A stretch of DNA of 64,000 nucleotides from assembly GCF_029542785.1 (NCBI RefSeq), contig NC_083371.1:1116001-1180000 (forward strand), in the 5' to 3' direction. A program made the position numbers and the translations under genes. The notes below the pieces were generated by a model that saw only the letters and a program-made list of their open reading frames with translations, made no database searches and had not been told where the DNA came from. Origin of the DNA: Malassezia japonica. Lineage: Eukaryota > Basidiomycota > Malasseziomycetes > Malasseziales > Malasseziaceae. Numbering within the stretch: position 1 is the first letter of the stretch; each line of letters starts with the position of its first letter. Shown one piece after another: positions 2,821 through 63,053 of this stretch.

Positions 2821-5706
2821 CTAGATCTCGTCCTCGGAACTGGAGTCTTGCGCCTCTTCTTCGGATTGATCACTGTGTGAGTAAAGTGACGTACGTCTCT
2901 CTTCGTGCGCGTGCACGCGGCTTAGGCTTGGGTGGTGCGATGGTCACCTTGGGGAGCGCCGTGAGGAATTCTGAGAGGTCCGCAAACGGAGCCGATGCCA
3001 GTGTCCCATCTGCGTTTGCGAGCGCCGGCGCCCATGTCGCAAACTGCGCCGCGTACTTTTTCTCGAGGAGTGCCTCGAGACGTGTACACGCCGTACGCAG
3101 TGTCGCTTCGTCGGCGCGCTGCCGCAGGGTCATGGCGAGGATAGCAAGTCCCTTGGCGCGGCGCTCGTCGAGCGTATCCGGCAAAAACATTTTGCCGAGG
3201 AGCGATGCAAGTGCCTTGCGTTCATCGCCTGTGTCAGTAGCGCGACGTACCCTTGTCCATCGTGCACAAACGCTCGAGGATCGTATGCAGTAGGTCCGCG
3301 TGCACGGTCTCGTCCGGCGTCGAAAGCAAAAGCTTCTCGGGATTGCTCCAGTCTGCGAGCTGGAGTGCGATTTGCGCCGGGGCGATCATGCCCTGCTGCG
3401 CCTCGGTTTCCGCATAGACCTGCGTAAGGAGGTCCCAGACGTCCATAAAGATGCGCTGGATCATGCGCTGGTGCTTGGCGTGCGACGAGCAGTAGAGTGG
3501 CAGGAAGTAGCTGAGGCACTGCCGCAGCGGCTGGTTCGACGCGGTATCGGGCGAATAGTACGTGAGCACGAGGCTCTTGAGCACGTCGTCGTCCATGAGT
3601 GCGCCGGTAAGCAGGAGCTTGGACACCCCCTCGCACGCAGCCGTCTGCACCTCTGGCTCATCGTGCTCGAGGAGCGAGAGGAGGAAGCCGACCATTTGCT
3701 GCTGCGCAAAGAGCATGCCCTGCTCCTCGTCGCCGTCAAACTCGGCCTTGGCCGCGACTTCGGCGCTGCGTGCGCACAGTGCCGTCACGCCGTGCACAAC
3801 GACCAGGTCAAAGAGACACTGCACACACCGCACCTGGATTGTGCCGGATCCGCGCTGGATCTGATCGAGGAGCAGCGGAAAGGTATCGAGTGCCATCTTT
3901 TCGTCGAGGAGCGAGCAGAGGCCGAGGCACACGAGGCCCTCTTCGCGTACGATCGCATCCTTGCTGCGCACCGCCGGTACGATCAGCTGGGGAATCAGCC
4001 CGTGGAACGCCGAGTTGTCCTGCAGCGCGCACGAGACGCGCTCGAGCATCGTGCGCACGATGAGCAGGCGGCGTGCGTCAAGCGCAGCGCGGTGTGCGGC
4101 CGCTTCGGGGTCGTTCTCGATGCGTGCATGCCACGACAAAGCCTGCTGCACGGACTCTTCGCCGTCCTCTTCGGCCAGGTCCGCATCCAGCTCCTGGACG
4201 AGCTCGACGACCATCTGCACAAAGTCGCGCTGGCCGCTCGAGAGGCGCAGCAGCACGTCGAGGCACCGTGGAATGAGCGCTGACGGAAGCCATGCGTTCG
4301 ACAGCATTTCGCGTACAAGCATAAACATCTTGCGGCGCCCCAGCTCGTCGCCGTAGTCGCAGTGCATCGCCAGCGCCAGCATCTCGTTCACGACAAAGAT
4401 GCGCGCGAGCGACGAGTCGTCCTGGATCGCCGGCATCTCCTCTTCGTCCTCCTCGATCGCTTGCTGCTCGAGCAAGAGGTTCAGCGCCTCGTACTCGGCC
4501 TCGATGCGGTAGACGAGCGCGGTGACGAGCGGCAAGGACGCCTCGAGCAAACTCTCGCGCTGGTTGTGCTGGCAAAAGAGGATAAAGCAGCGGGCCAGCA
4601 AGGCGGATTCCGGTGTGACCGACGCCCAGTACGTGTCCTGGTCAGCGAGGAGGCGCGCGACAGACTGCACCACGTCCCCGTCCTCCTCGAGGAGCGCCAT
4701 CGTGACCGGCTCGCCGCTCTCGGTCCTCGCAACGTGCAGGTGGCTCAGCAGCGCGACAAGGTCGCCGTCCATCGCCTCGAGCCAGCGGCGCATGAGCTTG
4801 CGCGCAGCTTTCTGCACGCTCTCGTCGCGCTCGTGCAGGCCGATGCGCACGACTTCCGCAGTGGCGTTCTCGCTGAGGCCGACGCCGACGCTGTCTTCGG
4901 CGTCGCACAGCATCTTGAGCGAGCCGAGGTAGACGCACCGCCGATTCGTCGCATCGACGTCCTGCAAACGCTCGAGGATATACGGGAGCGTCGCAGCGCT
5001 CGGCGCAATGTTGAAAAGCGCCGCGCGCCGCACTTCGGCGCTGGGGTCGTGGCGGAGCAGGTGCAAGAGGAGGCGCGTGACACTCGTGTCCGACTCCTCG
5101 TCGCCGCCTTGGAGGCGCGCGAGTGCAACAGCCGCCTGTACGCGCACAGCGCTCTCGCGGTCGGTAATACGCTCTAGCAAAAAGCTCGAGAGCGCGTCGT
5201 ATAGTTCGTCGCTGCGTTAGCCTTCCAACATACTCGATGCTCTCGACGACATTCATGAGCAGCGCGACGCAGCTGCAGCACCGCAAGCGCACATTCTTGT
5301 CCTTTGCCTTGAATCCTTTCAGGAGATGCTTGAGCAGGATCGCCGTGAAACGCGTGCCGGGCGTGTCGTCGGGGCTGCGGCCAGCGGCCGATGCGCTCTT
5401 GGCAAACTGCTCGATCGCATAGGACGCATACGTCGCAACAAACTTGCACACGCGGTCCGCAGCCGCAACGCCTTTCTTGACCTCCAGCGCGCGGTTCACA
5501 CACCGAAAGAAGCCTTCGTTGAACGCTTTTTCGCCCACGAGACGCGTCCCGCGCGGCGTCTGCTCGGTGAGCTGTGCACACTGTGCGTGCAGTCTGTACA
5601 ATCCCACCGCATTCTTGCGGTGGTTCGCAAGAGAGTGCTGCGCGTCCTGAAAATGGCCAGGCAGCTGCGCCTGCACACTCGCCGCAAGCGCCCCCGCGTC
5701 GACCAT
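2821..5706 (-). CDS. YCG1: Condensin complex subunit 3 (CAP-G/Ycg1)
   Basis: HEAT-repeat protein of 939 aa. Exons are 5706-5234, 5211-3251, 3228-2895 and 2872-2821, separated by three introns of exactly 22 nt. The joins keep frame and give a Ser/Asp/Glu-rich acidic tail ending SEDEI. Diagnostic segments are LANHRKNAVGLYRLH near the N-terminus and ERITDRESAVRVQAAVALARLQ-like HEAT repeats, typical of CAP-G. It is the non-SMC HEAT subunit of condensin, acting in mitotic chromosome compaction. The ATG at 5706 is the mirror of the lipoate-ligase ATG at 5705 (shared CCATGG). Initiation about 14 codons further upstream would run into the neighbouring gene. The stop nearly touches that of BRO1. Confidence 0.88.
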
Positions 5707-6841
5707 GGAGCAACACAGAGCGACGCGTTTGTCACGTGCCGGCATGCTTCGCCGACCGAGCGTGTTCGTGTCGCGGTCGCTCGACGCGCACTTTAACCTT
5801 GCGTGGGAAGACTTTCTGCTACGAACGGCACCGAGCGAAGTGCCGGTGTGCTTCCTGTATCGCAATGCGCCGTGCGTTGTCGTGGGGCGCAACCAAAATA
5901 TATGGACCGAGCTCGACGCACGCGCGATGCACCGTGCGCATATTCCGGTCGTGCGGCGCCGCTCGGGGGGCGGAACGGTGTACCACGACGAGGGGAATGT
6001 AAACTTTTCGTTCCATGTGCCGCGCAATGCGTTTGCGCGGCATACGCACACGGAGCTCGTCGCACACTCGCTCGCACGGCCGCCGGTCGGCCTGCCGACG
6101 CGGTTTGGCGAGGCGCCAGTGCAGGTCAACGACCGCAATGACCTGTACGTCTACGCGCGCGACGCTGCAAACGCGGCGCCCGATGCACGGCGCAAGGTTT
6201 CGGGGAGCGCGTACAAAATCATTAGCCAGCGTGCCTACCATCACGGCACACTGCTCCTCGACGCAGACCTCGGGCGGATGCGCTTCCTCAAGCGCAGTGG
6301 GGGGGCGGCTATCACGTCCAAAGGCATTGATTCGGTCCCGTCGCCGGTCGCCAACCTCGCCGCGACGTTTCAAGAGCATGCGCACCGCTTGCATCCCGAA
6401 AATGTATACCAGGCAATCGCCGCTGCGTTTGCCGAGACGTACGGCGCAGGCGACACGCACGACGTCGACGAAGCGAACCTCGACGCCGAGGCACAGGTCG
6501 GCAAGGCCGTGCACAGCGCGCGGAAAAACTACGACGAGCTGCACACCTGGGACTGGGTCTATGGGTCGTCGCCCGACATGCAGGTCGACGTGACGACCGA
6601 CGCGACGCCATGGGACGGCACACAGCTCGCGCTGACGCTGCACACGCAGCGCGGCATCGTGAGCACAGTCGACGTGCGCCGCCTCGACCGCGAGGACCTG
6701 CGTCCGGCACTCGAGGGGCTCGTCGGCGCGCCGTACGACGCTTTGGCGCTGCCCCCTCCATCGGCGGCGCCGGCACAGACACTGCACAGCAAGGGGCCTG
6801 TGGAAGAGGCCCTGGCGCAGTGGTTGCGGAAAGCATTGTAG
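5705..6841 (+). CDS. AIM22: Lipoate-protein ligase A-like, probably mitochondrial
   Basis: Single exon of 378 aa, or 365 aa from a second in-frame ATG at 5744. The lipoate ligase signature RRRSGGGTVYHDEGN is at residues 84-98. A downstream KVSGSAYKI segment carries the expected binding-pocket lysine. The family attaches lipoate or octanoate to the E2 and H proteins of mitochondrial 2-oxoacid dehydrogenases and glycine cleavage. The shorter start (MLRRPSVFVSRSL) looks more like a mitochondrial presequence. It also leaves 37 bp of promoter containing CACGTG, so I favour 5744, but the longer frame is given here. The stop is 20 bp from the convergent chitin synthase stop. Confidence 0.88.
   Translation: MEQHRATRLSRAGMLRRPSVFVSRSLDAHFNLAWEDFLLRTAPSEVPVCFLYRNAPCVVVGRNQNIWTELDARAMHRAHIPVVRRRSGGGTVYHDEGNVNFSFHVPRNAFARHTHTELVAHSLARPPVGLPTRFGEAPVQVNDRNDLYVYARDAANAAPDARRKVSGSAYKIISQRAYHHGTLLLDADLGRMRFLKRSGGAAITSKGIDSVPSPVANLAATFQEHAHRLHPENVYQAIAAAFAETYGAGDTHDVDEANLDAEAQVGKAVHSARKNYDELHTWDWVYGSSPDMQVDVTTDATPWDGTQLALTLHTQRGIVSTVDVRRLDREDLRPALEGLVGAPYDALALPPPSAAPAQTLHSKGPVEEALAQWLRKAL
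5733..5738. promoter_or_regulatory. CACGTG between condensin and lipoate ligase starts
   Basis: An E-box core lies in the 37 bp between the condensin ATG (5706) and the second lipoate-ligase ATG (5744). Its placement supports 5744 as the real start, because the same core sits in many of the short divergent promoters here. If 5705 is used, this site is coding. Confidence 0.3.
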
Positions 6842-6861: not shown

Positions 6862-9800
6862 CTAACCCCCGGAAAGGAGCTCGTCGATCATCATGTTGAT
6901 CTTGGTGCGCCGCGAGGTCAAGTCGGCGTTCGGCATGGACGTGGCGAGCGCTTCACGGACGTCGCGCTTCGTCACGTTCATCAGGCTGGGCTGCGCGGCG
7001 AGGTACGAGCGGATGGCGGCGCGGAGCTGCTCATCGCTGGGGTCGTGCGTCGGGTCCTCGGGCAGGACACTGTGGCCCGAGGGATACGCGGCGCTCGCGC
7101 CCGACATGGGCCGCATGGTCGGTGTATTCCACGGCGGCATTCCGTACATGGGCGGGGGCATGCCCATCGGCGGCATGCCGTACATCGACATTGTCGGTGG
7201 CATGCCATACATCGACATCGTCGGAGGCATGCCGTACATCGACATGGGGTGCGGCGCGGTGTACATGCTCGGCGTCATCGAGTCGCGCGGCCCTTGCGAC
7301 GAAGCGAGCGACTGGCGCTGGCCCTTAGCCTTTTCCAGCAGGTTCGTGTGCTGGAAGTAGTCGGCGTACTCGGGGTCCGGCGTCATCATCCGCGCCTCGC
7401 GCGACGGCTCGTAGAGCAGGGTATCCCGCGGGGCATCGCCCGCAGCAAGGATCTCTTGCTGGTACTCGGTGAAGCGCTTGCGCGGGATCATCGAATCGTC
7501 ATACGGTTCGTCGTCCGTGCCGGCCACGACCTTTTTGTTGCCTTTCTCGCCGACAACGATACGTGTGTTGCCCCACGAGAAGTCGTCCATATGCCAGAAA
7601 GAGTAGATCGGAAGGAGGAAGGCGTACAGGGGGAACGCGATCATCTGTGTCAGCGACAAAACGTACGTAGATTACCATCCAGCCAATGTATTGCCACTGG
7701 CGCTTGAGCAAAAAGATGATCGCCTGCAAACCGTACACGGCAGCAATCATCACAATCGCAATGATGGGAATGGGGCCGTTGCCGGTTGCCACCGTCACAA
7801 TCAAATAGACCATGTACACGGCGGTCGCGGGCAGGATAATCGTACCGAGGAGATCAATAAACACGATAAAGCGCATCGAGAACTAGGTTAGTTGGACGGC
7901 GACGTACCAAACAGAAACCACACAGACCATCCATCATCATGAGCTCGGCCAGGTTGTGCACCGTCGAGTTGATCCAGCGACGGCGCTGCGACAGCAGCAC
8001 AGAGAACTTATCGGGCGCCGCAGTCATTGCCGACGCGTCCGCACGGAACTTGGTGCGGAACGCGGGGAAATGCTTCAGGAGGAGCGTCGTCAAGTAACGG
8101 TCCTCACCCAGCGACAACAGGTTCTTTTTGTGCAGCGTGTCCACACGGTTCTCCGAGTAATCGTCAATGATGCGGTTCGAGATAAAGAGGGGATGGCCCT
8201 TGTCTGCCGAGCGGATACGGTACATGGAGAAACATCCGGGCAGACACGTCACACTGCCAAACAGCGACTCGAACGCTTTCGCGAGGTTGTGCGAGATGTA
8301 GTACTCGTACACCTGCACCATGGTCCACCAGCTCTGGTCCGCATTCTCGAGGAGCGTCTCACCACACACGGCAATGATCGAGTGGTCGTTCACCGCGGCC
8401 GACACAAGTCGGTTCATACCGTCGGCCGCAATACCGGTATCGGCATCCACCATCAAGATGTACTCATAGAACGAGGGATCGATACCAATCACATTCTTCA
8501 TGTGGTGGTACAGCTCGAGCTCAAGCGGCGACATGGGCGAGTCAAAGTGCACACGGTTCAAGTAGCGCATCAGCAGCACCTGCGTGTCACGCTTACCGCG
8601 GTTACCGGGGCGCGACTGCTCGCTGGGACGGCCGACCTTGACGACAACCACGTAGGGAACGACGTTGCCTTCACACTCATAAAGGCCCGAGTACACCTTG
8701 CCGTAGTTCAGCTGCTTCGAGCCCTCGGCAACCGACTTGAACGGCAGCGGCTCGGGATCCACCTTGGCGTCCACGCCAAGAATGTCAAGCACAATACGCG
8801 GCGTGGGGCGGTCGTTGCCACTACCCGTAATCATACCGTCACAGACAATAAACAGTAGCTTGCGCTTGTTGTCGTACTCTTGCACCGCGAGCGAGTCGAT
8901 GGTCTTCCTCAGCGAGTCCTCGTCCTCTGTATAACAGGGAACATGGCAGATCACAAAGCGGTCCTGCTGCTCCGGCGTCGGTCGGCGCACGAGTTGCAGT
9001 GCACTGACAAACTTGGAAAAGATGGTCAAGAAAATGAGAATCGAGAAAGAAAGCAATAGGTAGTTTTGCACAACACACTTGGGCGTCACACGGAAGTCGC
9101 TCTTGCCAACGTAAAAGACGTTGTCAAAGCAGTTTTGTGTCTGCTTTCGGCGGTCCGGCGACATGCCTTGCAGCGTCTTTTTAAAGTCATCCGAAACGTC
9201 GCCGCCCGCCTGGGCGTCAAAGAGATCGACCATGTCATCGTCCAAGAAAGAGTACTTGTCATCGCCTTGATGCAGCTGTTGTGTATACAGGTAGTTGGTC
9301 AGGTCGTATACCTTCCCGTCGACCGTCGCCCACTTGCGCCACGAGCCGTCCGTGGAGATCTGCTTCGGGTCAAAGACAAAGTAGCCTTTGTAGTACTGCT
9401 TCATCTTGGGCAGGAATCGGTTAAAGTACCAAGTCGGGCTATCCAGCTTGGTGTTCTTGTACGGCTGCGCATCGCCCGAGATGTGCATCGCCTGGCCGAT
9501 ACTGCCCGTGAGGTTCTCCGATTGACTCAGCTGCAATGAGCCGTCGTCGACAAGCCCTTGGCAGCCTGCTGCAAGGGGCACCGGGAAGTACGGCGTGAGG
9601 TCCTGGCCGGCCAGCTCCATCATGACATCTTCCGTGACAGGCGTTGCAGGCAGATCGGAGTGGTCCATCTTGTAAAACTTGGTGATGTCGTACACACTGC
9701 CTTGCACTGCGACGTAGAACGACTTGCTTGTGCTGTGCTCGCCCAGCTGTCCTTCAGTCCATGCCTTGTTAAAGTCGGGGCATAGCAGGCGGCCGACACC

Positions 9801-12715: not shown

Positions 12716-13550
12716 CTATCGGCCGACGCCGGATTCGCCGATGTGGAGGTCAGTGCACCATGCGCGGAGCGCGTCGGCGAGCGAGCCGAGCGCCGCGTGC
12801 GACGCAAAAAAGTGGTCCTGCGGAAGCGAGACGAGGCGCAGGCCTTTGGACTCGTGCGTAGATGCGAGGGAGGTGGTCCATGTGGAGTATGACTGCGTGA
12901 GAGGGACGACGTACCGCGGCACTGGTAAACTGGTCGGCGGTCGTCGTGAGCACCAACGCAGCGACGTTGGGTTCGGTCGCCGCACGCTTGACTACGCGCT
13001 CGACAGCATTCTGGAAGTAGGTGCCGCTGAGGCACGTCAGGGCCCAGCGTACACCGAGGGGGTAGGCGAGCAGGACGTAGCGTACCTCGGCCGTTTCCCA
13101 GCCTTGCGGCGCTTCGGCCGTCGACGCTCTGGGTGAGTTTCGCAACGCACTGGATCGCACCCGCGCTGTATCCCTGCGTGAGAAGAGCGACATACACAAA
13201 GATACAGTTCCGGCGTGCCGTGCGTCTCGACACGTGCGGCCATCGCGTCGACCACCGCCTGGTAGTCGCGGCTCTCGGCGCGCATCGTCCATGTCATCTT
13301 TCCGCTGCTCGAGCCGACGCCGCGCGCATCGTACGTCGCGACATGCAGGCCCGCATCGCAAAAGAACGACACGAGCGCCTGGACGACATGGTTGTCCTGT
13401 GTCCCACCCACATACCCGTACGCTGCCTTAGCTATTGTACATACGATGCGCAACTACCGCAAGTCCCCGGCTCTGTCCGCGCGGCGCATAGAGACGCGCA
13501 TCGAGCGCTACGCCCGGCGCAGCGTCCACGACCACCTTTGACGTCGGCAT
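12716..13550 (-). CDS. Alpha/beta hydrolase with micro-exon nucleophile elbow
   Basis: Protein of 248 aa from five exons: 13550-13445, 13422-13196, 13173-13151, 13128-12915 and 12892-12716. All four introns are exactly 22 nt. Reading: HPYGYVGGTQDN followed by the YDARGVGSSSG turn, then GYSAGA, the Ser nucleophile elbow, then a final PQDHFF segment that probably holds the catalytic His. The GYSAG motif sits on the 23-nt third exon. The pattern fits small alpha/beta hydrolases of the COG2945 type; substrate unknown. It lies 19 bp downstream of the coiled-coil gene on the same strand, and its own stop is 56 bp upstream of the chitin synthase ATG. Confidence 0.8.
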
Positions 13551-16068: not shown

Positions 16069-16795
16069 TTATGTAGCAGGGCGCAGAGCGCGCAGCCGCT
16101 GCGCGAGAGCCTCGTCGGGGTCCGCGCTGGCCTGTGCCTTTTGCTTCTCGGGCTGGCCAGTGGGCAGCTCGGCGACCTTGCCTTCGAGGCCCGCCTCGCC
16201 GAGCTGCTGGTGCATCTCGATGCCGTTCTGGTCGGCAACCTGCTGCATCAGCGTATCGACCTGGTCCTGGGGCATGCCGGACGCCGTCGTCGAGCCCATC
16301 GTCGACTCCATGTACGACGTCTGTACGTCCACGTCCTCAATCTGGTTCTCAAACTTGTCCATCACGGCGGAAATCTAGATGAGATAGACGACGTACCCGC
16401 TCGAGGTCCATGCTCTGCATCGCACGATCGAGCCCTTTGACGACCGACGACATATTGCCCGTGACCTGGCGCATGGCCACCGCCGTCTCCACGCGGCTAG
16501 CCACCGCATCGATGCGACTGCTGAGGCGCAGCAGGTTCAGCGACTCGTTCTTCTTGCGGATCGAGTTCGCAGCATAGATCCGCGCCCCTTCGACATTATC
16601 TTGCGCAAGCGCCTGCGTCAGCACAGGCACCTACCTTTTTGAGCTTCGCCTTCTCGCTCGTCTCGTCACGACTCGCCTTGTTGGCTTGCCGCTGCAGCGA
16701 CTTGGCCGTGAACTGCGTCAGCGTGCGCACTAGCTACCTTTAGCTGAAAGAGCGATTCTGTGTGAGCGCAACCACCTACTCTCGAGTCCACTCAT
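16069..16795 (-). CDS. DID2: ESCRT-III-associated protein Did2/CHMP1
   Basis: Protein of 211 aa rebuilt from five exons: 16795-16780 (16 nt), 16757-16738 (20 nt), 16712-16635, 16612-16397 and 16374-16069, with introns of 22, 25, 22 and 22 nt. The joined N-terminus MSGLEKSLFQLKFTAKSLQ is the canonical CHMP1/Did2 start. [28 protein letters not shown] and [19 protein letters not shown] follow. The C-terminal [12 protein letters not shown] is a MIM1 motif for the Vps4 MIT domain. Known role: it links ESCRT-III to Vps4 for disassembly on endosomes. It is divergent from the next gene with only 39 bp between starts. Confidence 0.93.
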
Positions 16796-16834: not shown

Positions 16835-17364
16835 ATGGCCACCGAACCGATGCAAGCTGCGTTCCGCGCGCATGTCGAGCCGACGCTGAGTGCGCTGCGT
16901 GTACATGCCAAGGATTCTCGTCCTGCGTATGCACTGGCTGGGTTGTGTAAGTTGCAAGTCTGATGCAGGCGCGGCCGCGATGCCTTTTGGATTTGCGCAC
17001 GCGACATTGAATGCGCATGCAGCCAAGACGATTCCCCGGCTCGTGCCGCCCTTCTGGCAGATGCTGGGCTTTGGCGTGTTCTTTGGTGCAGGCGGCTATA
17101 TGATTGATCATGGCGACATACTGAATGGAAGCGGCGTCATCTCGGGTACGTCGCCTCGCTCACCTAGCATGGTCCTTGACCTACCTGTGCTTCAAGACGT
17201 TGCCGGTGCTGCCCTACCTGTGGCGCTCGCCTTTGTCGCTCGCGGTGAGCACCAGTGTGACTGGAATTGGCCTCGGCGTGTACGGAAACTACTACTTTGA
17301 CGAGGCGAGCTGGCGCGGCGCCATTCCGGGTCTGCTGCCCGAGCCGAAGCAGAAGGAGACATAG
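16835..17364 (+). CDS. Small membrane protein of unknown function
   Basis: Protein of 161 aa from exons 16835-16946, 16969-17145 and 17168-17364, with two 22-nt introns (GTAAGT and GTACGT donors). Hydrophobic stretches lie near residues 33-55, about 72-90, 97-115 and 120-140, including MLGFGVFFGAGGYMIDHGD and SPLSLAVSTSVTGIGLGVYG. The C-terminus is short and Lys/Glu-rich. I do not recognise the family. The membrane pattern and size resemble small mitochondrial or ER membrane proteins, but no targeting signal is clear. It shares a 39-bp promoter with DID2, and its stop is 16 bp from the convergent MDM31 stop. Confidence 0.7.
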
Positions 17365-17380: not shown

Positions 17381-19779
17381 CTATGTAGGCAATTCAGGTG
17401 TAGGCATGACTCGCCCCATGGTATTGCGCAGGTTGCGCGCGAGACGGAGCATGCCTTGGGCCGCCAGGTCGAGTGACCAGAGACTTACGTTGCGCACGCG
17501 CTGTGTATTCGCCTGTTGCGACGCGACGTGGTTCGCCAGCGCCTCGTAAATCTTGCTCGAGACAAGCGGCAAGAGACCGGTCTGCGAGAGGTCCATCGAC
17601 CCATCGAATTCGCTCTGGGGTTAGGTTGGGCACATACCAGATCCATTACAATCCTGCAGTGCACAGGAATGAGTGTCTTGTGTGCGTTCATAAACGCCAC
17701 GACGGGGCGCGCAAGCGCGTAGGACGAGTAGCTCAGCTCGCGTGTGAAGATGGGCATCGACGCTTTGATGTCTTTTAGCCGCACATCCAGCTCGATCACG
17801 ACCGAGGGAGGGATCATTTGCGCCTCTTGGCCTTCTTCCAGTGAGAGGGAAAGCGGTGATTTCTGCCGCTGCGTGGGAGAGCTGCGGCGGCCGCGCCAGC
17901 GGGGGCCGCGCGTTTGCTCCTGGTCCTGCTCGTCGTGCTGCTGCTGCGCACGCTCCGCGACAGGGCCCACGGCCGCGACCGGGGCGAGAATCGCCGGTTC
18001 ACTCAGCGTCGGCTGGCCAGGAATACGGTCCTCGCCCTGGTTCCTCTGTGCGGGCTCCCGAGCAAAGGTCGCACTGAGGTTCTCGAGAATCTCGGAAATG
18101 ACCGTGTTGATGTCCACATCCTTGTCGTACTCGCGTGGGAATTTCACATCGGCCACCACTGCGGTTAGTTGGGCGACGTACAATCAAAGCGGCCCGAGTA
18201 GATCCACATCAAGGGGCCCGAAAGACCCGACATTTTTTGGATATGGTCAATGTTGACACCGTCCACACGGAGACGCGACTGGGTCAGTAGAGGAAACGTA
18301 CCCAGTTCTGGAGGTATGGGCCGTGGTGCTTGCCGTACAGATGGTTGGACGTGTATTGCACACTCTGCGGCTTGTGGAGACTGAACAAGCACCCGTCGAC
18401 CTGGCCCGTAATCGAGTCGGCATTCAACAGGTCGTAAAAGAGCCACTGCGTCCGCAGACGAGGGACGTTCATCTCAAAGATACTCATATTAAACGGACGG
18501 AAGTCACCGGGCTGGTACACTGTCACCAGGAAATCCTCGACGCGGAACGAATCGAGGTCAAAGTCGTTCGGGCGTCCCTTGCGACGCGCCTTGCGTGGAT
18601 CGTATGGCACATCCGGGTCCCAAAACACGTTGCGGCGGTCAATGATACCGCGTACGCCACGTAGCTCGGCCTTGTGGATGATGCCATGGCCGTCGAGCCA
18701 GCGCGAGAGACTCAGCTGCACGTCGACAGAGTCGATCCGCAGCTCAAACATGGAAAAGTTTTTGTCGTGCCGCTTTTCCTGCGCTTGTGTTGCGAGCTCC
18801 TCGTTGCTCATGGGCGACACCACCTCGCTTCCGGTGTCAAACGCAGGAATACCCTCCCACAAGGGCACATGCTCGGACGGGGACGAGGGGCGCAGAGGCG
18901 CTGCCTCTGTGTCAAGCGCCTGGCGCTCGTGCTGCAGCTTTTCCGGAGCGATCGGCTCCGCACGGCGCGTAATCACCACATCCTTGAAGCTAATGCGCCC
19001 TTCCTTCCACTTGGGCACAATCGCACTGCCGCACACGACGGTAAATCCAGTCTGCGACGAGATATAGTTGGCCAGCTTGAGAGCCATGTATTCTGCGTTA
19101 GAAGAACGACGCACCTTGCAGATTAAGCAGGTTCAGCGCTGCAAAGATAACGGAGACAAACGTTGTTCTGCGTCAGACCATACACGTACGTTCCCACAAT
19201 CACCCAGATCGCGGTGCCCAGTCCACCGAGCGTGAAAAAGGCACTGATCTCGTCGACGTTGAAGCGGCGGAAACCGCGGATGGTAAACCACTTAAACCTA
19301 ATACGCATACGCGTCCAGAATCCACGCGCGATACGCAGCAGGTCCTCCTGCGTCGGCTTGTTGCGTGCAGCGCCCGATCCGCGCGACGTACCGCTCGTGA
19401 CGGCGGACACGTCCTCGGCTCGTGCACGCGCAAAGCTGCGAGCCTTGAGCGCCAGGTCCCGAAGAGATCGGGGATAGTTTTGAAAGAGACTCTTGGAGGG
19501 CGTCTCGACAAGGTCATGCGCAGACGACTGCTTTTGCAGAAACATGTCCTGCTTTTCTGGCTCGTGAGGCGCGTCCTTAGCAGGCGGCTTTGTGTCCTCG
19601 TCCTTACTGCCATGAGCAGGATCAGCGTCTTTCGGCTTGTCTTTGGGTGCTTCGCATAGAGCCGCGCTCCAGTGCAAGGATCGGACGCCGAGGAGGTGCT
19701 CGGGCCCGCTAGCACGGGCCGTGCGAAGCAGGACGGGGAGTCCGAGGCTGGCGCACGCGGGGCGCGGCGCGCTCTTCAT
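17381..19779 (-). CDS. MDM31: Mitochondrial inner-membrane protein Mdm31
   Basis: Protein of 761 aa. Exons are 19779-19190, 19167-19115, 19092-18302, 18278-18182, 18158-17638 and 17614-17381, with introns of 22, 22, 23, 23 and 23 nt. Diagnostic family text: WFTIRGFRRFNVDEISAFF followed by a membrane helix, GFTVVCGSAIVPKWKEGRI, and SRLRVDGVNIDHIQ. Known role: mitochondrial distribution, morphology and nucleoid maintenance in the inner membrane. The start at 19779 (MKSAPRPACASLGL) gives an Arg/Ala-rich presequence. Three upstream in-frame ATGs (19860, 19896, 19962) would leave very little promoter before the divergent gene. Confidence 0.9.
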
Positions 19780-43597: not shown

Positions 43598-43897
43598 ATG
43601 CCGGTTCCGCTGCTGTCTGTGATCCCTATGGGCATCATCACCGCGCTCTTCGCGGTGACGGGTACCGGTTTCAGCGCGGTGTCGCGTCTTGCGAACGACG
43701 GCAAGGTACGTGGAGCTGCTAACCCAGCCGATGCGCCACAACCTCGACGACTGGGAGCGTATGATGATGCGCCGCGACTATCGCCTGACAGGAAGTACAC
43801 GCGGGCAAGCAGTACGTCTCTCTTCTAACTCCAGCATGATTCGCAAGCGCCGCCCGAGTTTGCGACGAATAGCTTCTGGAGTACGGAGCGCGTGTAG
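43598..43897 (+). CDS. NDUFA1: Complex I MWFE subunit (NDUFA1)
   Basis: Protein of 84 aa from exons 43598-43705, 43728-43811 and 43835-43897, with introns of 22 and 23 nt. It starts MPVPLLSVIPMGIITALFAV, a single membrane helix, then NDGKPMRHNLDDWERMMMRRDYRLTG and ends NSFWSTERV. This fits the MWFE/9.8-kDa supernumerary subunit of NADH:ubiquinone oxidoreductase, so the organism keeps complex I. Its stop lies 6 bp from the convergent NOB1 stop. Confidence 0.88.
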
Positions 43898-49351: not shown

Positions 49352-50501
49352 TTAAATGACAAAGAGCAGGTTCATGTCGATGGGGTGCGACGCGCTCATC
49401 TGCGGCTTCTGCGAGTACTTCATCGCGAGAGCGTCGCTGGATTAGTGGGGATACGTACCGTGTAGCGTTCAGTAGCTGGAGGTACGAGAGCTGCGAGTAC
49501 TCGTTGAGCACCTTGATAAACGCCCAGCTCATCGCGCCGGTCGCACGGCCAGCCTCGGTCGCGTCCGCCGACGTCTGGCTGTCTTTGCAGCCGGAAAGCA
49601 TGATGACGTCTGCACCAGACGAGCGCGTCTGGCGCGTGTACTCGGCCGCGCCGCTGCCGGTCGTCGCCGACTTGAAGGTGGACATCAGGCCAGAGACCAC
49701 GCCGCCGATATCGCCGCGCGCATAATCCATCGCGGCGCCGAGGATGCCTTTGCCGACGTTCATCGAGATGTTGGTCTCTTTGATGTTGCCCGAGGTCGAG
49801 TAGACGTACGGCAGGTCGAGCGCAGTACCGGAATGGCACGAGTCAAAGAGCGCCGTCAGACGGCAGCCGATGGGGAGCGGGCGCACGAGGCGCGCGTGCA
49901 GCTCGTCGTCGGGCATCTGGCCAGTCATGTTGTAGTCAAGCGGGAGGATCGTCTCATTGTACCCGTCCTCCTCGTCGCCCTCGACCGCACGCTCCTGACC
50001 ACCATGGCCAGAGTAGTGGAAGAAGAGCGCGTCGCCTTGCTGCGCGCCGGCCACGAGCCACTGCATCGCCGCCACAATGTTGGCGCGCGTCGGCACCGAC
50101 TTGGGGTGCACGCCCGGCTCGTCCGTAAGGAGCACCATGTCGTCGTGCTTGTAGCCAGCGTAGCGGTGGATAAAGTCGGCCATGTTGTGCACGTCGTTCC
50201 AGCAGCCACGCAGCGCACTGTTCATACCGGCATAGTTAATACCAATCAGCAGCGCCTTACGCTTGCCTTGCATCGACGAGTACTCGTAGTGCATGTTGCC
50301 GTTCATCACACCACCCTGGGGGTTCGCGTGGACCATCATGTTGTTGTACTGGGGGGGGGCACCGCCGCCCGCCTGCATATGGTAGCTCGTGGGGGGGCCA
50401 CCATAGCCCTGAGGAGGACCGTAGCCTTGGGGGGCGTAGCCCTGAGGGGGTCCGTAGCCCTGGGGGGCATAGCCTTGCGGGGGGCCGTAGTTGTTGTACA
50501 T
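49352..50501 (-). CDS. MCA1: Metacaspase (MCA1/YCA1 type I)
   Basis: Protein of 375 aa from exons 50501-49459 and 49436-49352, with a 22-nt intron. The N-terminal 50 residues are Gln/Pro/Gly/Tyr-rich repeats (YGPPQGYAPQ). The caspase fold follows: KRKALLIGINY, catalytic His166 in YSGHGGQ and catalytic Cys222 in DSCHSGTALDLPY. The last exon restores the standard end (RDALAMKYSQKPQMSASHPI). It is an Arg/Lys-specific cysteine protease involved in stress, protein quality control and cell death. The ATG at 50501 is preferred, because the upstream frame starts with GTG. It is divergent from cofactor C with 39 bp between, containing CACGTG. Confidence 0.94.
50391..50489. repeat. Imperfect repeats coding YGPPQGYAPQ
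   Basis: Three imperfect units encode the prion-like N-terminus of the metacaspase, with long G runs on the plus strand. They are coding and not a CRISPR array. Confidence 0.7.
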
Positions 50502-50540: not shown

Positions 50541-51377
50541 ATGGCCAATGCGTCGGACGCCGCCGCGTTCTTTGCGCGGTTTCCCGCGCAGCTCGCACGT
50601 ACGTTATGTGGCTTATGTAGATGTGCACTCACTTGTAGAGGAGGCTGGGGGGGGCGGTCCGATGCGGCGGTCGACGCGCTGGGCGAGGCGCGCCGCGCGC
50701 TGCAGACAGCCGCGCCACGGTTGCCGCCGCACGACCTGCAAAAGTACGAGCAGGAGCTGCAGGCGATCCAGCGCGAGCTCGCCGAAAAGGGGCAGCGCGC
50801 GCGCGGGGCATTCCAGTTTCGTCGGAGGGCGCAGCGCGCGCCTGCCGCGGCCGCGGCGCCGGCCGCGGCCACGACGCCTTCCACGCCCCGCACGCGCGAC
50901 GCGTGGCTCGGTACGGCAGAGCTCGGCACGGGCGGCGTCGTGGCGGCGCACCTCGACGGGTGCATCGTCGACCTGCGCACGGCAGACGTCTCGGCGCTGC
51001 ACCTCCATCACGCACAGAATACCCTCGTGCTGCTCGGCGACGTGTCGAGCAGCATTCTCCTCGAGCACTGCACGCGTTGCATCGTCGTCGGCTCGGTGGG
51101 CCAGTGCCGTGTATTTGAAGTGCGTGCAAGCGCCCTCCTCGTCGACACGAGCTCGGTCGTGACGCTCGAGGCGTGCGATGCGATCCAGATCGGGGGGCGC
51201 GTCGCGCCCGCGCCCGCGCTGCGCGTACAAGACTTTGGCGACGCGTTTGGCGGCCATGCGCACTGGCGCGCCGTCGACCCCGCCGTGTACAGTGGGATGG
51301 CGCGCGCGCTCGCGGCGCTCAATCCACACGCGGACCCGCCGCACGTAGCGCCTTTTCACGCACTCTTTGCTCTCTAG
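50541..51377 (+). CDS. TBCC: Tubulin-folding cofactor C, frame break
   Basis: Exon 1 (50541-50598) encodes MANASDAAAFFARFPAQLA. A 22-nt intron (50599-50620) follows, then exon 2 to 51377. The N-terminal spectrin-like region includes LPPHDLQKYEQELQAIQREL. The C-terminal TBCC beta-helix has VSALHLHHAQNTLVLLGDV, SSSILLEHCTRC and VGQCRVFEV, where QCR fits the Q-x-R arginine-finger motif of the beta-tubulin GAP. The reading frame shifts at a G8 run (50647-50654). One extra G gives a continuous frame. An alternative 42-nt intron ending TAGAG would also fit without an error. Its stop codon directly abuts the stop of the ubiquitin protease. Confidence 0.72.
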   Translation: MANASDAAAFFARFPAQLARTLCGLCRCALTCRGGWGGRSDAAVDALGEARRALQTAAPRLPPHDLQKYEQELQAIQRELAEKGQRARGAFQFRRRAQRAPAAAAAPAAATTPSTPRTRDAWLGTAELGTGGVVAAHLDGCIVDLRTADVSALHLHHAQNTLVLLGDVSSSILLEHCTRCIVVGSVGQCRVFEVRASALLVDTSSVVTLEACDAIQIGGRVAPAPALRVQDFGDAFGGHAHWRAVDPAVYSGMARALAALNPHADPPHVAPFHALFAL

Positions 51378-53189: not shown

Positions 53190-55852
53190 ATGGGTAGGTG
53201 ACGCGGCTGACGCAGAACCCTCGTTGCAGAAGGCGCTCTTTGATCGCGTGTATGATAAGCGAAAAGCGGCGGCGCTCGATCTGGAGCGGTACGTGACTAG
53301 GCTGACGCAGGCAAGTGCGCGATTGCGTGTCGCGGGGCGACCGTGCACGCGTCACACAGATTGTGCAGCAGCTCTGCACCTTTCTCACGCAACCGGCGCA
53401 ACAGAATGCCAACGCACGCAACGGCGGTCTGATTGGCCTCGCAGGAATTGGTATCGCGCTCGGACAAGAGATTGCCGCGTACCTCGACCAGTTTATCGAC
53501 CCGGTCCTGGCATGCTTCAGCGACCCGGACCCCAAGACGCGCTACTTTGCATGTGAGTCGTTCTACAACATCGCCAAGGTGTGCAAAGGCGAGATCCTCG
53601 TCTACTTCAACCAGGTATTTGTCGTCCTCGCGCGCCTCGCAGCCGACTCGGAGGTGTCGGTGAAGAACGGCGCGGAGCTGCTCGACCGCCTCTTCAAGGA
53701 TATCGTGTGCGAGGCCGCACCGCACTACGTGTCCGTTTACCAGGACGTGGCACGCGTGCGTGCAAAGCAGGACCAGTCAGCGGGGTATGCGGGAGGGAGC
53801 GACGAACTGAGCGTCGCGCGTGAAAAAGCCGAGCACCAGCGGTATATGCACGAGATCCACGAGCAACACGACGTGCGCAACACGACGATGAACAAGGCAT
53901 TTTCTTTGGCACGCCTCATGCCGCTGCTTGCCGAAAAGATGCAGGTCGTCTCGCCACTCACCCGCAACTATCTCGTGAGCTGGATCGCGGTGCTGGACTC
54001 GGTGCCGGACCTGCAGCTGGTCAGTTACCTCTCCGTCTTTCTCCCTTTTCTGTTCCAGTACCTTGCGGACCCGAACACGGACGTGCGCGTAGCCACCGCC
54101 GAGGTTCTCGCCAACTTTTTGCGCGAGATCCGCGAGGCGGCGCAGCACACTGACCAGACGCCAGCAAACGCACAGGGGGCGCCGGACGTCAAAGAGGAGA
54201 AGAGCAAGCAGGAGAAGGAGGACAAGCCCACTTCCGAAGACGACGACCTCATTTGGATCCACACGCACGGCGTGCGCATCGAGTACGATGCAATTTTTGA
54301 AATTCTTCTCGAGCAGATTGCGAGCAACGACGAAGAGATCCAGGCGACGATCTTTGAGTGGATCACCGAGTTTTTGCACGTCGTCCCTTCGATGGTGATC
54401 CCGTTTACGCCGCGCCTCATTTCGGCGATTCTCCCGTGCCTCGCACACCCCGCGCCTGCGATCCAGACTGCGGCGATCGAGACGAACAAGCAGCTCTTCC
54501 ACGCCATTGAAAAACTGCCGCCGCCGCCCTCGCACGACGACGAGCAGGCGAGCGCGGCACCGGCGCCGGCCGTGTACTCGGATGCAGTCAACTACTTCCA
54601 GACGGCCAACGCCTTGAAGCAGCACCTGCTCGATCAGAACGATAAGACGCGTCTGAACGCGCTCGAGTGGCTCATCATGCTCCACCGCAAGAGCCCGACA
54701 AAGCTCTTCTCGATGGAGGATGGGAGCTTCTCGTTCCTGCTAAAGGTGCTCTCGGACCCCAGCGAAGAGGTGATTCTGTGCGACCTGCGCCTGCTCACGC
54801 AGGTCTGCAGCAAGTCGGACTCGCGCCACTTTAAGCTGTTTATCAAGGATCTCTTGGAGCTCTTCCGCTCGGATCCCAAGCTGCTCGAGACGTGGGGCAG
54901 TCTGATTATCCGTCAGCTCTGCACGTCGCTCGAGACAGAGCGCGTGTTCTGCACGCTCGCCTCCTCGCTCGAATCGTACGACGACCTGGAGTTTGCGAGC
55001 GTCATGGTCCAGAACCTCAACATGATCCTGGTCGCCTCGCCAGAGCTTGCGGCCTTCCGCCGCCGGCTGCGCATGCTCGACCAGAAAGAGAACCAGTCGC
55101 TGTTTGTCGACCTGTACCACTGTTGGTGCCACAATGCCGTGTCGGTCTTTTGCCTGTGCCTCTTGACGCAGGCGTACGAGCACGCATATGATCTGCTGCG
55201 GATCTTTGCCGAGTACGAGGTCTCGCTTACGATGCTCATCCAAATCGACAAGCTCGTCCAGCTCCTCGAATCGCCCATTTTCACGGCGCTTCGCCTGCAG
55301 CTCCTCGAGCCGGAGACGAACCCGTACCTCTTCAAGTGCTTGTACGGTCTCATGATGCTCCTCCCGCAGAGCTCGGCCTTCTCGACGCTACGCAACCGCG
55401 TGCACGCGGTCAACGGCCTCGGTTTCCTCCCGCCGGCCGCACGCACCTCGGCGCCGCCCAACGCACCGGGCCGCAGCCGCGCGCCAAAGGCGGATATCCC
55501 GTGGGCCGATCTCCTAGCCCACTTCCGCAAGGTCCAGGGGCACCACGAGCAGGCGCGCGAACAGAACGCATCGCGCACCGACCCCGCACTCGCAGACGTC
55601 GCAAGCCGCGAGCTCCCGGCGCCCGCAGTGCCGTCAATAGACGCGCCTCCGCTCACGGGCCGCGTCCGCCGCCGCCCGAACGAGCCGGCGCTCTTTTCGG
55701 GCAGCCGCAGCGCCACGACGCCACTCAATACCTCGGCGCGCGGCACGCCGACCGACGAGCACGGGCCGGCGCATGGCCTGCGTGCGCCGTGGGGCGCCAG
55801 TGCATCGCACGAGCGCACATCGCGACCCAACAGCCGTGCGACTCGACAGTAG
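53190..55852 (+). CDS. VAC14: Vac14, scaffold of the PtdIns3P 5-kinase complex
   Basis: Protein of 872 aa from exons 53190-53193 (ATGG, 4 nt), 53216-53288 and 53311-55852, with two 22-nt introns. The joined start MEPSLQKALFDRVYDKRKAAAL and NARNGGLIGLAGIGIALG are diagnostic. HEAT repeats run through the protein, and the region HKSPTKLFSMEDGSFSFLLK to the Cys-rich WCHNAVSVFCLCLL is conserved in Vac14. It assembles Fab1 and Fig4 to make PtdIns(3,5)P2 on the vacuole. The C-terminal 130 residues are Pro/Ser-rich and variable. No other upstream ATG gives this frame. The stop directly abuts the CTNNBL1 stop. Confidence 0.92.
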
Positions 55853-57826
55853 CTATAGACCTTGTACATACGCAAGCAAGGCTTCGAGGATGTCTTGCGT
55901 GCGCATCCCTTCGCCGTCTGAGCCCGCAGCCACCATGGCATCGCCCACATTGTCGCGGTACTCGACCAAGGAGGCGACGAGGGCCGACAGCGGCACATTG
56001 GCGCGTTCGAGCAGCATGCGGATATGCGCTTGAGCCTAGGTCAGTCTCATTACGTACCCCATCGTCTTCCATTAGGAGCCAGGCAAGGAGGTAGTCAATC
56101 AGCTGTAGCGAGTACAGGCCCGATTCGAGGCGGCGCAGGTAGCCGAGCTCGGCGATCTCGTCGTCCTTGAGACCTTGCTCCTTGTACATTTTCAAGTCCT
56201 CGGCGAGGCTGCGCTCAGCGTGCTGGACGCGCGCAGCCATCGTCTCGCGCAGCTCCAGGAGCCGGTCGATCTTGCTAAAGTCTTGCTCGACAAACTTGGA
56301 CAAGACGCGAACGCGCTCGGCACTGTCCGAGGCAAGGTTGTGCAGGAGCGAGGCAATGAGGCCGAGCACATGCTCCATGTCCTGCGCCGTCGTCGCATGT
56401 GCACGTCCTTTCGCGCCGTGCTCGGTCGGGAGCATGAAAATCGCAAAGAGGCTCTTTAGGCCGAGTACCTCGACGAACCGCACGCACTGCGGGCCGCCGT
56501 ACGCTCCCGCGAGGGCGTGGTCCAGCACTTTGAGTGCACGCATACGCGACTGCTTCTTTTCTTTGAGCATGATGACCATCAGCTCGACACCCTCGTCGTT
56601 GAGGAAGCGCTTCTTGTTGGCATCCAGCAAGAGGCACGAGCACAGCGCGTCAAATACATTCTCCATAAACTCGGTCTCTTCCTCGTCCGCGGGGTCGCGC
56701 TTGCGATACGGCGCAAGGATCTTGAGCAGCACGTCGATTCCCCCCTTTTCGCCCAGTACCGCACGGTTCTTCTCGCTATCCTGCAAGAGAATCGCAAGCA
56801 GCTCGCCAGAATACGCGGTGTTCTGGTCGAAACGCGCCGCATACTGCATGCGGTCCAGCAGCCAGGTAAGGAGCGATGTCGAGGACACGAGCTCCTCCGC
56901 CGCGTTGGGCTCAAGTGACACGACATTTTCCAAGACGCTCAAAGTATGGTACACACCTTGAACGTCGCTGTCGTAGTTCTCCAGCGCCGCCGCGTCGTCG
57001 CTCGCCGGCGGCTTGTCGTTGAAGCGCGAGAGATTCGAGACGAGCAGCGCCAAGATCTGGCCTTCGCGCAGCGCCTCGACCAGGCCATGCATCGCCTCCA
57101 AGCCCGGCCGCTGCGCATCCTCACCGGGCTGCGCGTCCGAGTCGAGCACGTCGTCGTCCGTCAGCTCTTCCAACACCTGAATCACGGCCGAGGCAATGTC
57201 GGCGTTTTCGTGCGAAAGGAGCTCAATAAGCGCACTCGCGCCGCCGAGCCGCACAAACTCGGGATAGAGCAAGGCACAGTTGGTCGTCAGCACGACGAGC
57301 CCACGCAGTTCATCGTGCAGATCGGCTTCCGAGGCGATGAAGCGCTGGGGCTCCGTGGGGTATTTGAGGCGCATTGCCTGGTTCTGCTGCATCGCCTTTT
57401 CGAGCTGCAGCATCTGCTTGCGTGTGTCGGCCAGCATGCTTTCTGCCGTCTGGGTCAGGCGCGCAACATACCGCTTCTTCGACCTCGTCGGCACCGTCGC
57501 GGTTCATGATCTGGAGGATGTGCTTCTGCTCCTCGGTCAGGCCACCACCAAAGAAGCGCCCTCCCTCCTCGTCCTCGTCCACAAAGTAGTCTGCGTCGTT
57601 GCCAGGCGCAAAGTCCGCATCGTACTCCTCGTCCTCGCCCTCGTCCTCGACGCGTGCCCGTTTGGCCTGAGCCAATTCGGGCTCAGTGCGCTCTGCCTCT
57701 TCGTCGTCGGGCCGGAGCGACTGGCCAGCGGGCGCATCCCACTTGCGTTTGTTCACCGCGGAGGATGGCAGCGACGGGAGCTGCGTGAGCCAGCGCACCT
57801 ACCTTGAACAACTTTCCGACGTCCAT
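55853..57826 (-). CDS. CTNNBL1: Beta-catenin-like protein 1 (CTNNBL1), spliceosome-associated
   Basis: Protein of 635 aa from exons 57826-57803 (24 nt), 57780-57472, 57449-56058 and 56035-55853, with three 22-nt introns. It has the N-terminal MDVGKLFKLPSLP and a basic KRKW. Then come NCALLYPEFVRLGGASALIELL, LLTWLLDRMQ, QNTAYSGELLAILLQ and FMENVFDALCSCLLLDANKKRF. All match the armadillo-like CTNNBL1 family, which binds the Prp19/CDC5L complex. The acidic FVDEDEEGGRFFGGGLTEEQ segment is also typical. Many yeasts lack this gene; its presence fits an intron-rich genome. Confidence 0.92.
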
Positions 57827-57891
57827 CGTGCGCAACGCGACGAGCTGCATACATAATTCCCCATTTTGCGCACGGCTCGCCACGACCGACG

Positions 57892-60297: not shown

Positions 60298-61143
60298 TTA
60301 TACAGTCGACGGCTCGCCCAAGTACTCGTTGCGCAGCGCCGCTTTTTTGGCACGCAGCAAGAAGGTCTCGATGTCTTTGCGTTCCGGGACATCGGGCATG
60401 CGCAGCTCGTTGGCATCGAGTGCATTCAGGTTCGGTGCGACCGTGTCGGGGGTATCATTTGCACGGGGCGCGTGCAGCGTGAGTTTTGTCGGGGGAGCGC
60501 GGGGAATAGCGGGGAGGTCGGTACCCTGAGGAAGCTCGAGCGCGGAAGCAATACGGGCCCAGCCCTGCTCCCAGCCATGGTTTTCCGAGGCGATTTCCTC
60601 GTCGAGCAAGACTCCATCGTCCTCGTCCTCGTTGCCAAAGTAGGCTCCAGTCTGGTTCTGGAAGCGGCGGAACTTTTGCGTACGGTACGACTCGAGCTCC
60701 TCTTCTTGCGCGGCTGTCCGATTAAACATTTCCTTCACACCCGGAAGGTCCTTGGCGCGACCAAAGTACTTGTATCCTCGCGTACCCGGCAGGAGACTGC
60801 CCTCGTCGTCCATGAGGCGCGCGGACGTGTTGATGTAGTTTGCACCACCCAGCGCCATGATGTGCTTCTCCCACATCATCTTTTGGCGGAAAAGCTGGTT
60901 GATGTCATCATTCAGGTCGCGGATCTCGTACTCGTTCAGACCGTAGTCCTGAATCTTGGACACTTTGCGCTCCAAGTCACTCATGACCGAGGCACGCCAC
61001 CTCTCACATTCGCGCAAACTCGTGATTCCATTGGCAACCGTCGGGCGCTTTCCTGGGGTGAATGGCTTCACACCCAGCTCGGCCGCCTGTGCCTGACGGA
61101 AGCGGTACAGCACAGCTTGGGCCTTCTCCTGATTCTGCGCCAT
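60298..61143 (-). CDS. ISY1: Pre-mRNA splicing factor Isy1
   Basis: Single exon of 281 aa. It starts MAQNQEKAQAVLYRFRQAQAAEL and has LRECERWRASVMSDLERKVS, YEIRDLNDDINQLFRQKMMWEKHI and LGGANY, all conserved in ISY1. ISY1 joins the NTC complex, sits close to the catalytic centre and affects first-step fidelity and branch/3' splice site positioning. It lies next to RPL10A, whose start codon is formed by splicing. TCACGTGA at 61186-61193 lies in the shared promoter. Confidence 0.95.
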   Translation of the reverse strand: MAQNQEKAQAVLYRFRQAQAAELGVKPFTPGKRPTVANGITSLRECERWRASVMSDLERKVSKIQDYGLNEYEIRDLNDDINQLFRQKMMWEKHIMALGGANYINTSARLMDDEGSLLPGTRGYKYFGRAKDLPGVKEMFNRTAAQEEELESYRTQKFRRFQNQTGAYFGNEDEDDGVLLDEEIASENHGWEQGWARIASALELPQGTDLPAIPRAPPTKLTLHAPRANDTPDTVAPNLNALDANELRMPDVPERKDIETFLLRAKKAALRNEYLGEPSTV

Positions 61144-61185: not shown

Positions 61186-61193
61186 TCACGTGA
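61186..61193. promoter_or_regulatory. TCACGTGA between ISY1 and RPL10A
   Basis: Perfect palindrome with a CACGTG core in the divergent promoter of ISY1 and the ribosomal protein gene RPL10A, 43 bp from the ISY1 ATG. The same 8-mer occurs upstream of BRO1. A T-rich tract follows on the RPL10A side. Confidence 0.45.
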
Positions 61194-61266
61194 TTTTTTC
61201 TGCTGCGGCAACTACCAAAAAGCCCCTCTGCGACTCCTGCTTCTTTCCACCCGACTTTCTTGCAAA

Positions 61267-62473: not shown

Positions 62474-63053
62474 TTAGAAACGGTTGAACGCCTTGGCGCG
62501 CTCAGTGCTCTTGTTCTTGATCACCTTGAGGGTGTTGAAACGCACGGTCTTCGACAGGGGGCGGCACTGGCCTGAAGGTTAGCAAAAAAAGGAAAAGAGG
62601 AGTACGTACCAGCCACGATAATGTCACCGACCTCGACACGGAACGCGGGCGAAACGTGCACGGGAAGGTTCTTGTGGCGCCGCTCGTAACGGTTGTACTT
62701 GGGGACGTAGTGCAGGTACTCCCGGCGGATGATCACGGTGCGGGTCATCTTGGTCGAGACAACCTTGCCGCTCAGCAGACGGCCACGGATCGAGACGAGA
62801 CCAGTCCAGGGGCACTTCTTGTCTGCAACAGTGTTAGTACGCGTTCAAAGAAACAGAAACGGCGCAGTACGCCGTGAGGATACGTACCAATGTAAGTACC
62901 GTTGATGGCAGCGCCGGGGGTCTTGAAGCCCAGACCGACGTCCTTGTACCACCGGCGGGTACGGGTGGTCTTGCGAGCCGCCTTCGAGTTAAGGAAAAGG
63001 GGCTGCTTCTGGAAAGCCTTCTCCGTCTGCACACCGAGCTCCACGTTAGACAT
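62474..63053 (-). CDS. RPS11: 40S ribosomal protein S11 (uS17)
   Basis: Protein of 158 aa from exons 63053-62888, 62822-62610 and 62571-62474, with introns of 65 and 38 nt, among the longest here. It contains [74 protein letters not shown] and ends [17 protein letters not shown]. Both introns have GTACGT donors and CTAAC near the acceptor. Codon bias is strong. It is divergent from RPS12 with two GCACGTGAC elements in the 213-bp shared promoter. Confidence 0.96.

Follow-up and report, generated by a model that had tools for sequence, protein, structure and literature searches.

What holds so many introns of the basidiomycete yeast Malassezia japonica (class Malasseziomycetes) at exactly 22 nucleotides (nt), and which distance within them sets the lower limit? 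The question is raised by a 64,000-nt stretch of its genome (C2:1116001-1180000; hereafter the window), for which an earlier note had rebuilt 76 coding introns, 36 of them 22 nt long, 12 of 23 nt and none shorter. We searched the genome (8.43 Mb, nine contigs) with the strict pattern GTRNGT-N7-CTNAC-N-YAG, taking the same pattern reversed as control. It matches at 2576 places, as against 4 for the control. The window holds 31 strict matches, compared with 0.00 expected from 100 shuffles, and the number rises to 35 once T is tolerated as the final base of the branch motif, close to the 36 first reported. The layout is fixed: the donor fills positions 1-6 and is followed by a 7-nt spacer, CTNAC at 14-18, one base, and C/TAG at 20-22. 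By motif, the branch A is position 17, 16 nt past position 1 and 5 short of position 22, as the note had it. Its five named examples (5212-5233, 13174-13195, 16613-16634, 45080-45101 and 57781-57802, all on the minus strand) also read as it stated.

When the motif was allowed any spacing in a 264-kb set made up of the window and C1:1-200000, 93 matches were 22 nt long, 25 were 23, 8 were 24 and 12 were 25, followed by 3 at 26 nt, 8 at 27 and 5 at 28. Lengths of 19-21 nt gave no match in this set, and the 2 matches at 18 and the 2 at 15 nt are about what chance would give. M. japonica thus has a dominant single intron length with a sharp floor, beneath which lies a minor 21-nt class.

The same length emerges from a gene finder that uses coding composition and requires GT and AG within a flat range of 6-200 nt, with no preference for branch motif or length. 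Before learning any splice-site bases it called 144 introns, 31 of them at 22 nt and 18 at 23; after learning donor and acceptor preferences from its own calls, it called 159, of which 56 measure 22 nt and 23 measure 23 nt. As decoys, seven other dinucleotide pairs were put through the version that had learned nothing; each yielded 126-145 calls, 1-6 of them 22 nt long, and the tallest peaks at any one length were 13 calls of 19 nt (GT...GA) and 12 of 10 nt (GC...AG). Among the calls made after learning, every one of 22-25 nt (56, 23, 4 and 10 at 22, 23, 24 and 25 nt) has a GTNNGT donor, namely GTACGT, GTAGGT, GTATGT and similar. Seven calls fall below 22 nt, all without branch motif and without GTNNGT donor, and 30 of the 159 are at least 60 nt long. 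The branch motif CTNAC/T is present in 116 of 119 training introns, a set picked by GT at +5/+6. Applied to the window with the minimum length set to 10 nt, the finder returned 76 introns, 30 at 22 nt, 9 at 23 and none shorter; that its total equals the one first reported is a coincidence. Its open reading frames are no evidence, stops being forbidden by design.

Whether the segments are removed can be judged from the coding frames on either side, which may fit removal, retention or neither (lengths that are multiples of three were judged by motif counts instead). For the full motif at 22 nt, 35 of 105 matches were assessable, and 34 fit removal and 1 retention. With GTNNGT and YAG alone, removal is favored in 36 of 45 assessable cases at 22 nt (8 retention, 1 neither) and in 11 of 13 at 23 nt (2 retention), whereas only 1 of 36 assessable cases fits removal when lengths of 13, 14, 16, 17, 19 and 20 nt are pooled. 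Removal also restores the protein in comparisons of CHMP1, a metacaspase and Mdm31.

In the CHMP1/Did2 gene (minus strand), the protein spliced from 16069-16795 equals the deposited M. japonica protein MJAP1_001721 over 211 of 211 residues. Its introns comprise a first one of 22 nt (16758-16779, strict motif), one of 25 nt with the weak donor GTAGCT (16713-16737), one of 22 nt matched strictly and called by the finder (16613-16634), and one of 22 nt with the branch CTCAT (16375-16396; relaxed motif and finder). The junctions of the latter two fall within an ungapped alignment to CHMP1A (PDB 13gm). Between the first 22-nt intron and the 25-nt intron lies an exon of only 20 nt (16738-16757); the identity with the deposited protein spans this exon, including its residues SLFQLK, and requires the 25-nt intron. 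The finder had first called a single 50-nt intron at the start of this gene, which sequence and homologues resolve into a 22-nt intron, the 20-nt exon and the 25-nt intron; hence its long calls are unreliable, and several calls above 90 nt in the window probably conceal 22-nt introns.

The metacaspase junction (49437-49458, minus strand; branch CTAAT, relaxed motif and finder) aligns without gap to PDB 4f6o. Mdm31 (minus strand) has two introns of 22 nt (19168-19189, the site of extra residues described below, and 19093-19114; strict motif and finder) and three of 23 nt (18279-18301, 18159-18181 and 17615-17637; finder). Among the 14 relatives aligned out of 120 listed, sequence is continuous at the junctions of the introns of 22, 22, 23, 23 and 23 nt in 12, 12, 13, 13 and 12, respectively. 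Furthermore, a Pfam scan of seven spliced window proteins matched every one to a family above cut-off. Junctions lie within the matched stretch in the Aim19-family gene (plus strand; 16947-16968, branch CTGAT, relaxed motif and finder; 17146-17167, strict motif and finder), in the complex I protein MWFE (43706-43727, plus; 51 residues on 51 positions), in the PIN match of Nob1 (45080-45101, minus) and in CTNNBL1 (57450-57471, minus). The first CTNNBL1 junction (57781-57802, minus) and those of ribosomal protein L13 (35220-35241 and 35628-35649, minus) fall beyond the matched stretch and so outside that test; these, like the MWFE, Nob1 and other CTNNBL1 introns, are strict matches called by the finder.

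Protein records of other Malassezia species bear on the same sites. At the first Mdm31 junction the M. yamatoensis and M. psittaci records retain TYVLNLTQ, residues that an unspliced 22-nt intron of the same layout could encode, as judged from protein records only; TYVxxLTQ occurs in 2 of 362 proteins searched, and these are the two Mdm31 records. At CHMP1 intron sites, extra residues are found in M. furfur (P0244, 8), M. sympodialis (P0248, 8) and M. pachydermatis (P0258, 9); a second M. sympodialis record (P0246) is without them. Six Malassezia records (P0123, P0126, P0134, P0244, P0248 and P0258) apparently retain or run across tiny introns. From such records, tiny introns seem to be common across Malassezia and often mis-annotated.

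Which distance, then, defines the floor? Over the 264 kb the gap between donor hexamer and branch motif is 7 nt in 108 cases and 8 nt in 20. Gaps of 4-6 nt account for 1 case and gaps of 0-3 for 8, counted over all acceptor distances against a background of about 1.2 per gap. From branch motif to YAG, a distance of one base is most frequent at gap 7 (92 of 108), moving to 2-3 as the gap widens, and an acceptor directly behind the motif (0 bases) was found at no gap in the 264 kb. The sharp floor therefore seems to lie in the 7-nt stretch separating donor hexamer from branch motif, rather than in the total length of 22.

Indeed, the other distance can yield. Genome-wide, the 21-nt pattern GTRNGT-N7-CTNAC-YAG occurs at 40 places, compared with 1 for its control. 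These sites mostly end in CTCAC followed at once by CAG, 39 of 40 start with GTACGT, and C precedes the branch A in 36 of 40, as against 34 of 104 22-mers (p 3.5e-10). Among the first 21 of the 40, which were read, the coding frame continues in 19 (13 of 14 when a margin was required), fitting removal and retention equally; in 5 of these 19, retention would hit an in-frame stop. Of the spliced fragments, nine were compared with Pfam and four with the PDB. At a sterylglucosidase site (L035, C1:502053-502073) the segment contains an internal TAG, no other AG follows in the next 30 nt, and the junction is ungapped against PDB 8exd; given this stop and the ungapped homologue, at least one predicted 21-nt intron is well supported. 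No insertion of 7 residues marks the junction in fragments of TsaD, a PHD-finger protein or a nucleotidase, though the nucleotidase aligns there with a gap of one residue and TsaD with gaps elsewhere; in a polymerase X fragment, 53 residues spanning the junction match 53 positions of the profile. Rpb4 and ATG13 fragments, with net length differences from their profiles of 7 more and 8 fewer residues, are uninformative on the junction; one leucine-rich repeat match fell below cut-off, and three of the nine fragments gave no Pfam match. Altogether, the 21-nt class is probably real but rare. The statement in the earlier note that no intron is shorter than 22 nt is thus true of the window and of the 264-kb set but fails genome-wide, and its hard limit of 22 survives as a sharp minimum whose floor is the 7-nt donor-branch gap, the step from branch to acceptor being able to lose one base.

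For still narrower spacing, gaps of 0-6 were searched genome-wide with GTACGT donors only, giving 110 places as against 40 for the control. Among the 100 that were listed, most have, by eye, a second branch motif at a gap of at least 7, and 10 are 16-20 nt long. None of these ten was clearly supported on reading, and only two have clear frames on both sides: eight were not judgeable, one of 16 nt is read through, and one of 20 nt, in a Snf7-like sequence, fits removal. In this last candidate, however, a CAG three bases on equally gives a normal 23-nt intron.

The spliceosome components U2, U6, Cwc25 and Isy1 look ordinary. U2 (123 bits) carries the branch-binding GUGUAGUAUC containing GUAGUA, with which the branch motif CTNAC/T can pair, and U6 (81 bits) carries the ACAGAGA box. 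Cwc25 starts MGAGDLNMKKSW, and Isy1, encoded at 60298-61143 of the window, starts MAQNQEKAQAVLYRFRQ (MAQNQEKAQ); we take both N-termini to be the usual forms. A U2AF2 match reaches 224 bits where the curated threshold is 310, a shortfall probably caused by the search taking no account of introns. With the branch A placed by motif, the lariat loop of a 22-nt intron would be 17 nt. Besides Isy1, the window encodes a second spliceosome-linked protein, CTNNBL1 (56099-57850).

Base preferences set the short class apart as well. Among the first 100 listed places for each pattern, GTACGT...CTAAC gave 55 of 22 nt and 28 of at least 28 nt, while GTACGT...CTCAC gave 73 and 3 (p 1.4e-6); the genome totals are 865 versus 36 in the control for the former and 950 versus 51 for the latter. 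In the gene-finder set, a pyrimidine precedes the branch A in 34 of 82 introns of 22 nt versus 9 of 41 of 26-70 nt (p 0.04), introns without motif having been dropped (1 of 83 and 12 of 53, respectively). Downstream of the donor, G stands at +8 in 56 of 104 22-mers versus 8 of 38 longer introns, and C at +9 in 58 of 104 versus 10 of 38. Several contrasts of this kind were examined, so the smaller ones should be confirmed on independent introns. The relaxed choice of base ahead of the branch A suggests that the branch point is selected partly by its distance from the donor. We propose only tentatively that the minimal class uses a fixed-distance mode, in which the branch A would be chosen mainly by the 7-nt spacer with the preceding base free and contacts at +8 and +9 (G, C) helping; longer introns would rely on a stricter CTAAC/CTGAC, and a CTCAC subset could drop the base before the acceptor to reach 21 nt.

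With these data in hand, we consider it likely that the 22-nt segments are ordinary U2-type spliceosomal introns that have shrunk to the minimum of a fixed layout and piled up against a wall in donor-branch spacing. Their ends are GT-AG with a donor consensus; one homology-supported intron of another length, the 25-nt intron of CHMP1, has GTAGCT. Deletion pressure in a compact genome would drive introns shorter, and shortening would halt once the tether between donor and branch reaches its minimum, because the donor held on U6 and the branch held on U2 would both have to be seated before step one. Introns would then accumulate at this wall, and the reach from branch to acceptor would form a second, softer limit that occasionally yields by one base to give 21 nt. 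Several points weigh against such a reading. The 21-nt class and the ten places of 16-20 nt lie beneath 22 nt; relaxation of the base ahead of the branch A shows less strongly in the local gene-finder set, and the length contrast between CTAAC and CTCAC comes from the first 100 places of each pattern; the position of the branch A is read from the motif; and splicing itself we infer from frame, homology and one deposited protein. Moreover, introns of 15-18 nt in Stentor, Mikrocytos and a nucleomorph mean that there is no universal wall at this spacing. The wall, which we infer from length distributions, may plausibly be specific to the spliceosome of the M. japonica lineage; the shorter introns already published rule out a limit common to all spliceosomes.

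The alternative that survives best holds that the pile-up at 22 nt reflects no physical wall and is instead due to selection on a length class, a retained intron of 3n+1 nt shifting the frame and exposing the message to decay. The rarity of 21 nt, a multiple of three (40 versus 2576 at 22), is in line with this, as are the 8 matches at 24 nt, below the 25 at 23 and the 12 at 25, and the depletion of 3n introns described for Paramecium and other ciliates (PMC5014332). However, 27 nt (8) is not under 26 (3) and 28 (5), and the 264 kb contain no match of 19 or 20 nt, although retention at these lengths would disrupt the frame just as much. The shortage of 21 nt, in turn, follows from the absence of an acceptor right behind the branch motif at every gap in that set. 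We judge selection on length class to be an improbable cause of the pile-up.

Less probable still, and to our minds barely credible, is an origin of the 22-nt introns by recent spread of an intron-making element (introner), of which they would be copies. Their single length, common layout and common bias at +8 and +9 would suit such an origin; identical spacer pairs number 5 versus 1.5 (standard deviation 1.1) in column shuffles, and the pairwise-match variance is slightly raised, at 1.58 versus 1.49 (standard deviation 0.03). Yet 99 of 104 spacers are distinct, near-identical copies were not found, and spacer pairs agreeing at six or more of 7 positions are as numerous as in shuffles (27 versus 25). 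The CHMP1 sites in other Malassezia records, with their 8, 8 and 9 extra residues, look as if they held introns of 24, 24 and 27 nt. That the motif arose by chance, or serves coding or regulation with no splicing involved, can practically be dismissed and is refuted for the tested genes by the frame restored in 34 of 35 cases, the identity of spliced and deposited CHMP1 and the ungapped junctions.

How does this class of introns compare with known minimal introns? In Stentor coeruleus introns measure 15-16 nt, and the Cwc25 plug and the Isy1 N-terminus have diverged, which its authors conjecture relieves a clash with the tight lariat (PMC9505925). Dominant fixed length, fixed position of the branch A and genome-wide use are common to both organisms; the Stentor introns differ in having the branch A at 10, no strong branch consensus and AU-rich sequence, whereas those of M. 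japonica have it at 17 within CTNAC. Alteration of the Stentor kind was not seen in the N-termini of M. japonica Cwc25 and Isy1, which are ordinary-looking. Mikrocytos mackini, a parasite with a much reduced spliceosome, has 224 introns of 16-17 nt (PMC10245619), similar in their narrow length range and conserved sequence; against these 224 stand about 2600 strict matches in M. japonica, with ordinary U2, U6, Cwc25 and Isy1. The type B introns of Trichomonas, about 25 nt long with a shortest of 23 (PMC12316389), likewise form a short uniform class beside a longer one, with the branch near the acceptor, but number 24, while 22 nt is dominant at thousands of places in M. japonica. Nucleomorph introns of Bigelowiella are given as 18-21 nt. 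The length itself is no record, shorter fixed classes existing: calling it close to the shortest known was fair, with introns of 15-16, 16-17 and 18-21 nt on record, and the suggested physical limit of the spliceosome is not universal.

Within the genus, introns of M. restricta have a mean of 37.2 and a median of 30 nt, with software minimum lengths set at 20 and 15 (PMC9241646), and a review speaks of "very short introns" (PMC7426719). For M. globosa, two annotations average 76 and 79 nt. Short introns and stretches of 8-9 residues retained in protein records are thus shared with M. japonica, while the available parts of the accounts of the genus give no 22-nt spike, spacer floor or 21-nt class. 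Nor did the accessible portions of the Malassezia literature on intron length, branch point, gene prediction and spliceosome yield a 22-nt class, although it may have been mentioned elsewhere. The apparent novelty lies in how many such introns there are, in their fixed geometry and in the sharp floor of the spacer, all in a basidiomycete yeast whose core parts are ordinary. Minimal introns were previously drawn from ciliates, strongly reduced parasites and nucleomorphs; here they occur beside ordinary-looking U2, U6, Cwc25 and Isy1. Some 2600 natural cases of one geometry would measure how close donor, branch and acceptor may come when the spliceosome is a conventional one, a measure open to test by biochemistry and structural biology. 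Annotation is affected too, as in several Malassezia species the protein records seem to include tiny introns left in place.

The remaining 22-nt features of the window can be given briefly. Strict matches that the finder also called lie on the minus strand at 2873-2894, 3229-3250, 5212-5233 (GTATGT-N7-CTAAC-GCAG), 7645-7666, 13129-13150, 24577-24598, 31323-31344, 33368-33389, 34188-34209, 42891-42912 and 43324-43345, and on the plus strand at 19988-20009, 20053-20074, 20217-20238, 53194-53215 and 53289-53310. Six of the 35 motif matches were mis-sized or missed by the finder. Besides the first CHMP1 intron, these are two strict candidates absorbed into longer calls (12893-12914 into 243 nt and 31009-31030 into 202 nt, both minus), the intron at 13174-13195 (minus, strict), around which it chose a 40-nt intron of the same frame class, an uncertain candidate at 50599-50620 (plus, relaxed motif), where it preferred 42 nt, and a strict motif outside all gene models (56036-56057, minus). 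Conversely, a candidate at 13423-13444 (minus), with CTAAG at the branch place, was called by the finder only.

Three minor observations concern neighboring lengths and records. Genome-wide, the lengths of GTATGT...CTAACNNYAG, a pattern that admitted 18-41 nt only, seem two-peaked, with 15 of 45 at 23 nt, 25 at 31-40 and 5 between. In the M. brasiliensis Mdm31 record (P0134), GKSLFQLK follows a junction and resembles the CHMP1 exon of the adjacent gene. Finally, two 23-nt introns one base apart in sequence (39433-39455 and 41771-41793) lie in neighboring gene models on one strand, perhaps marking a tandem gene duplication that retained its intron.

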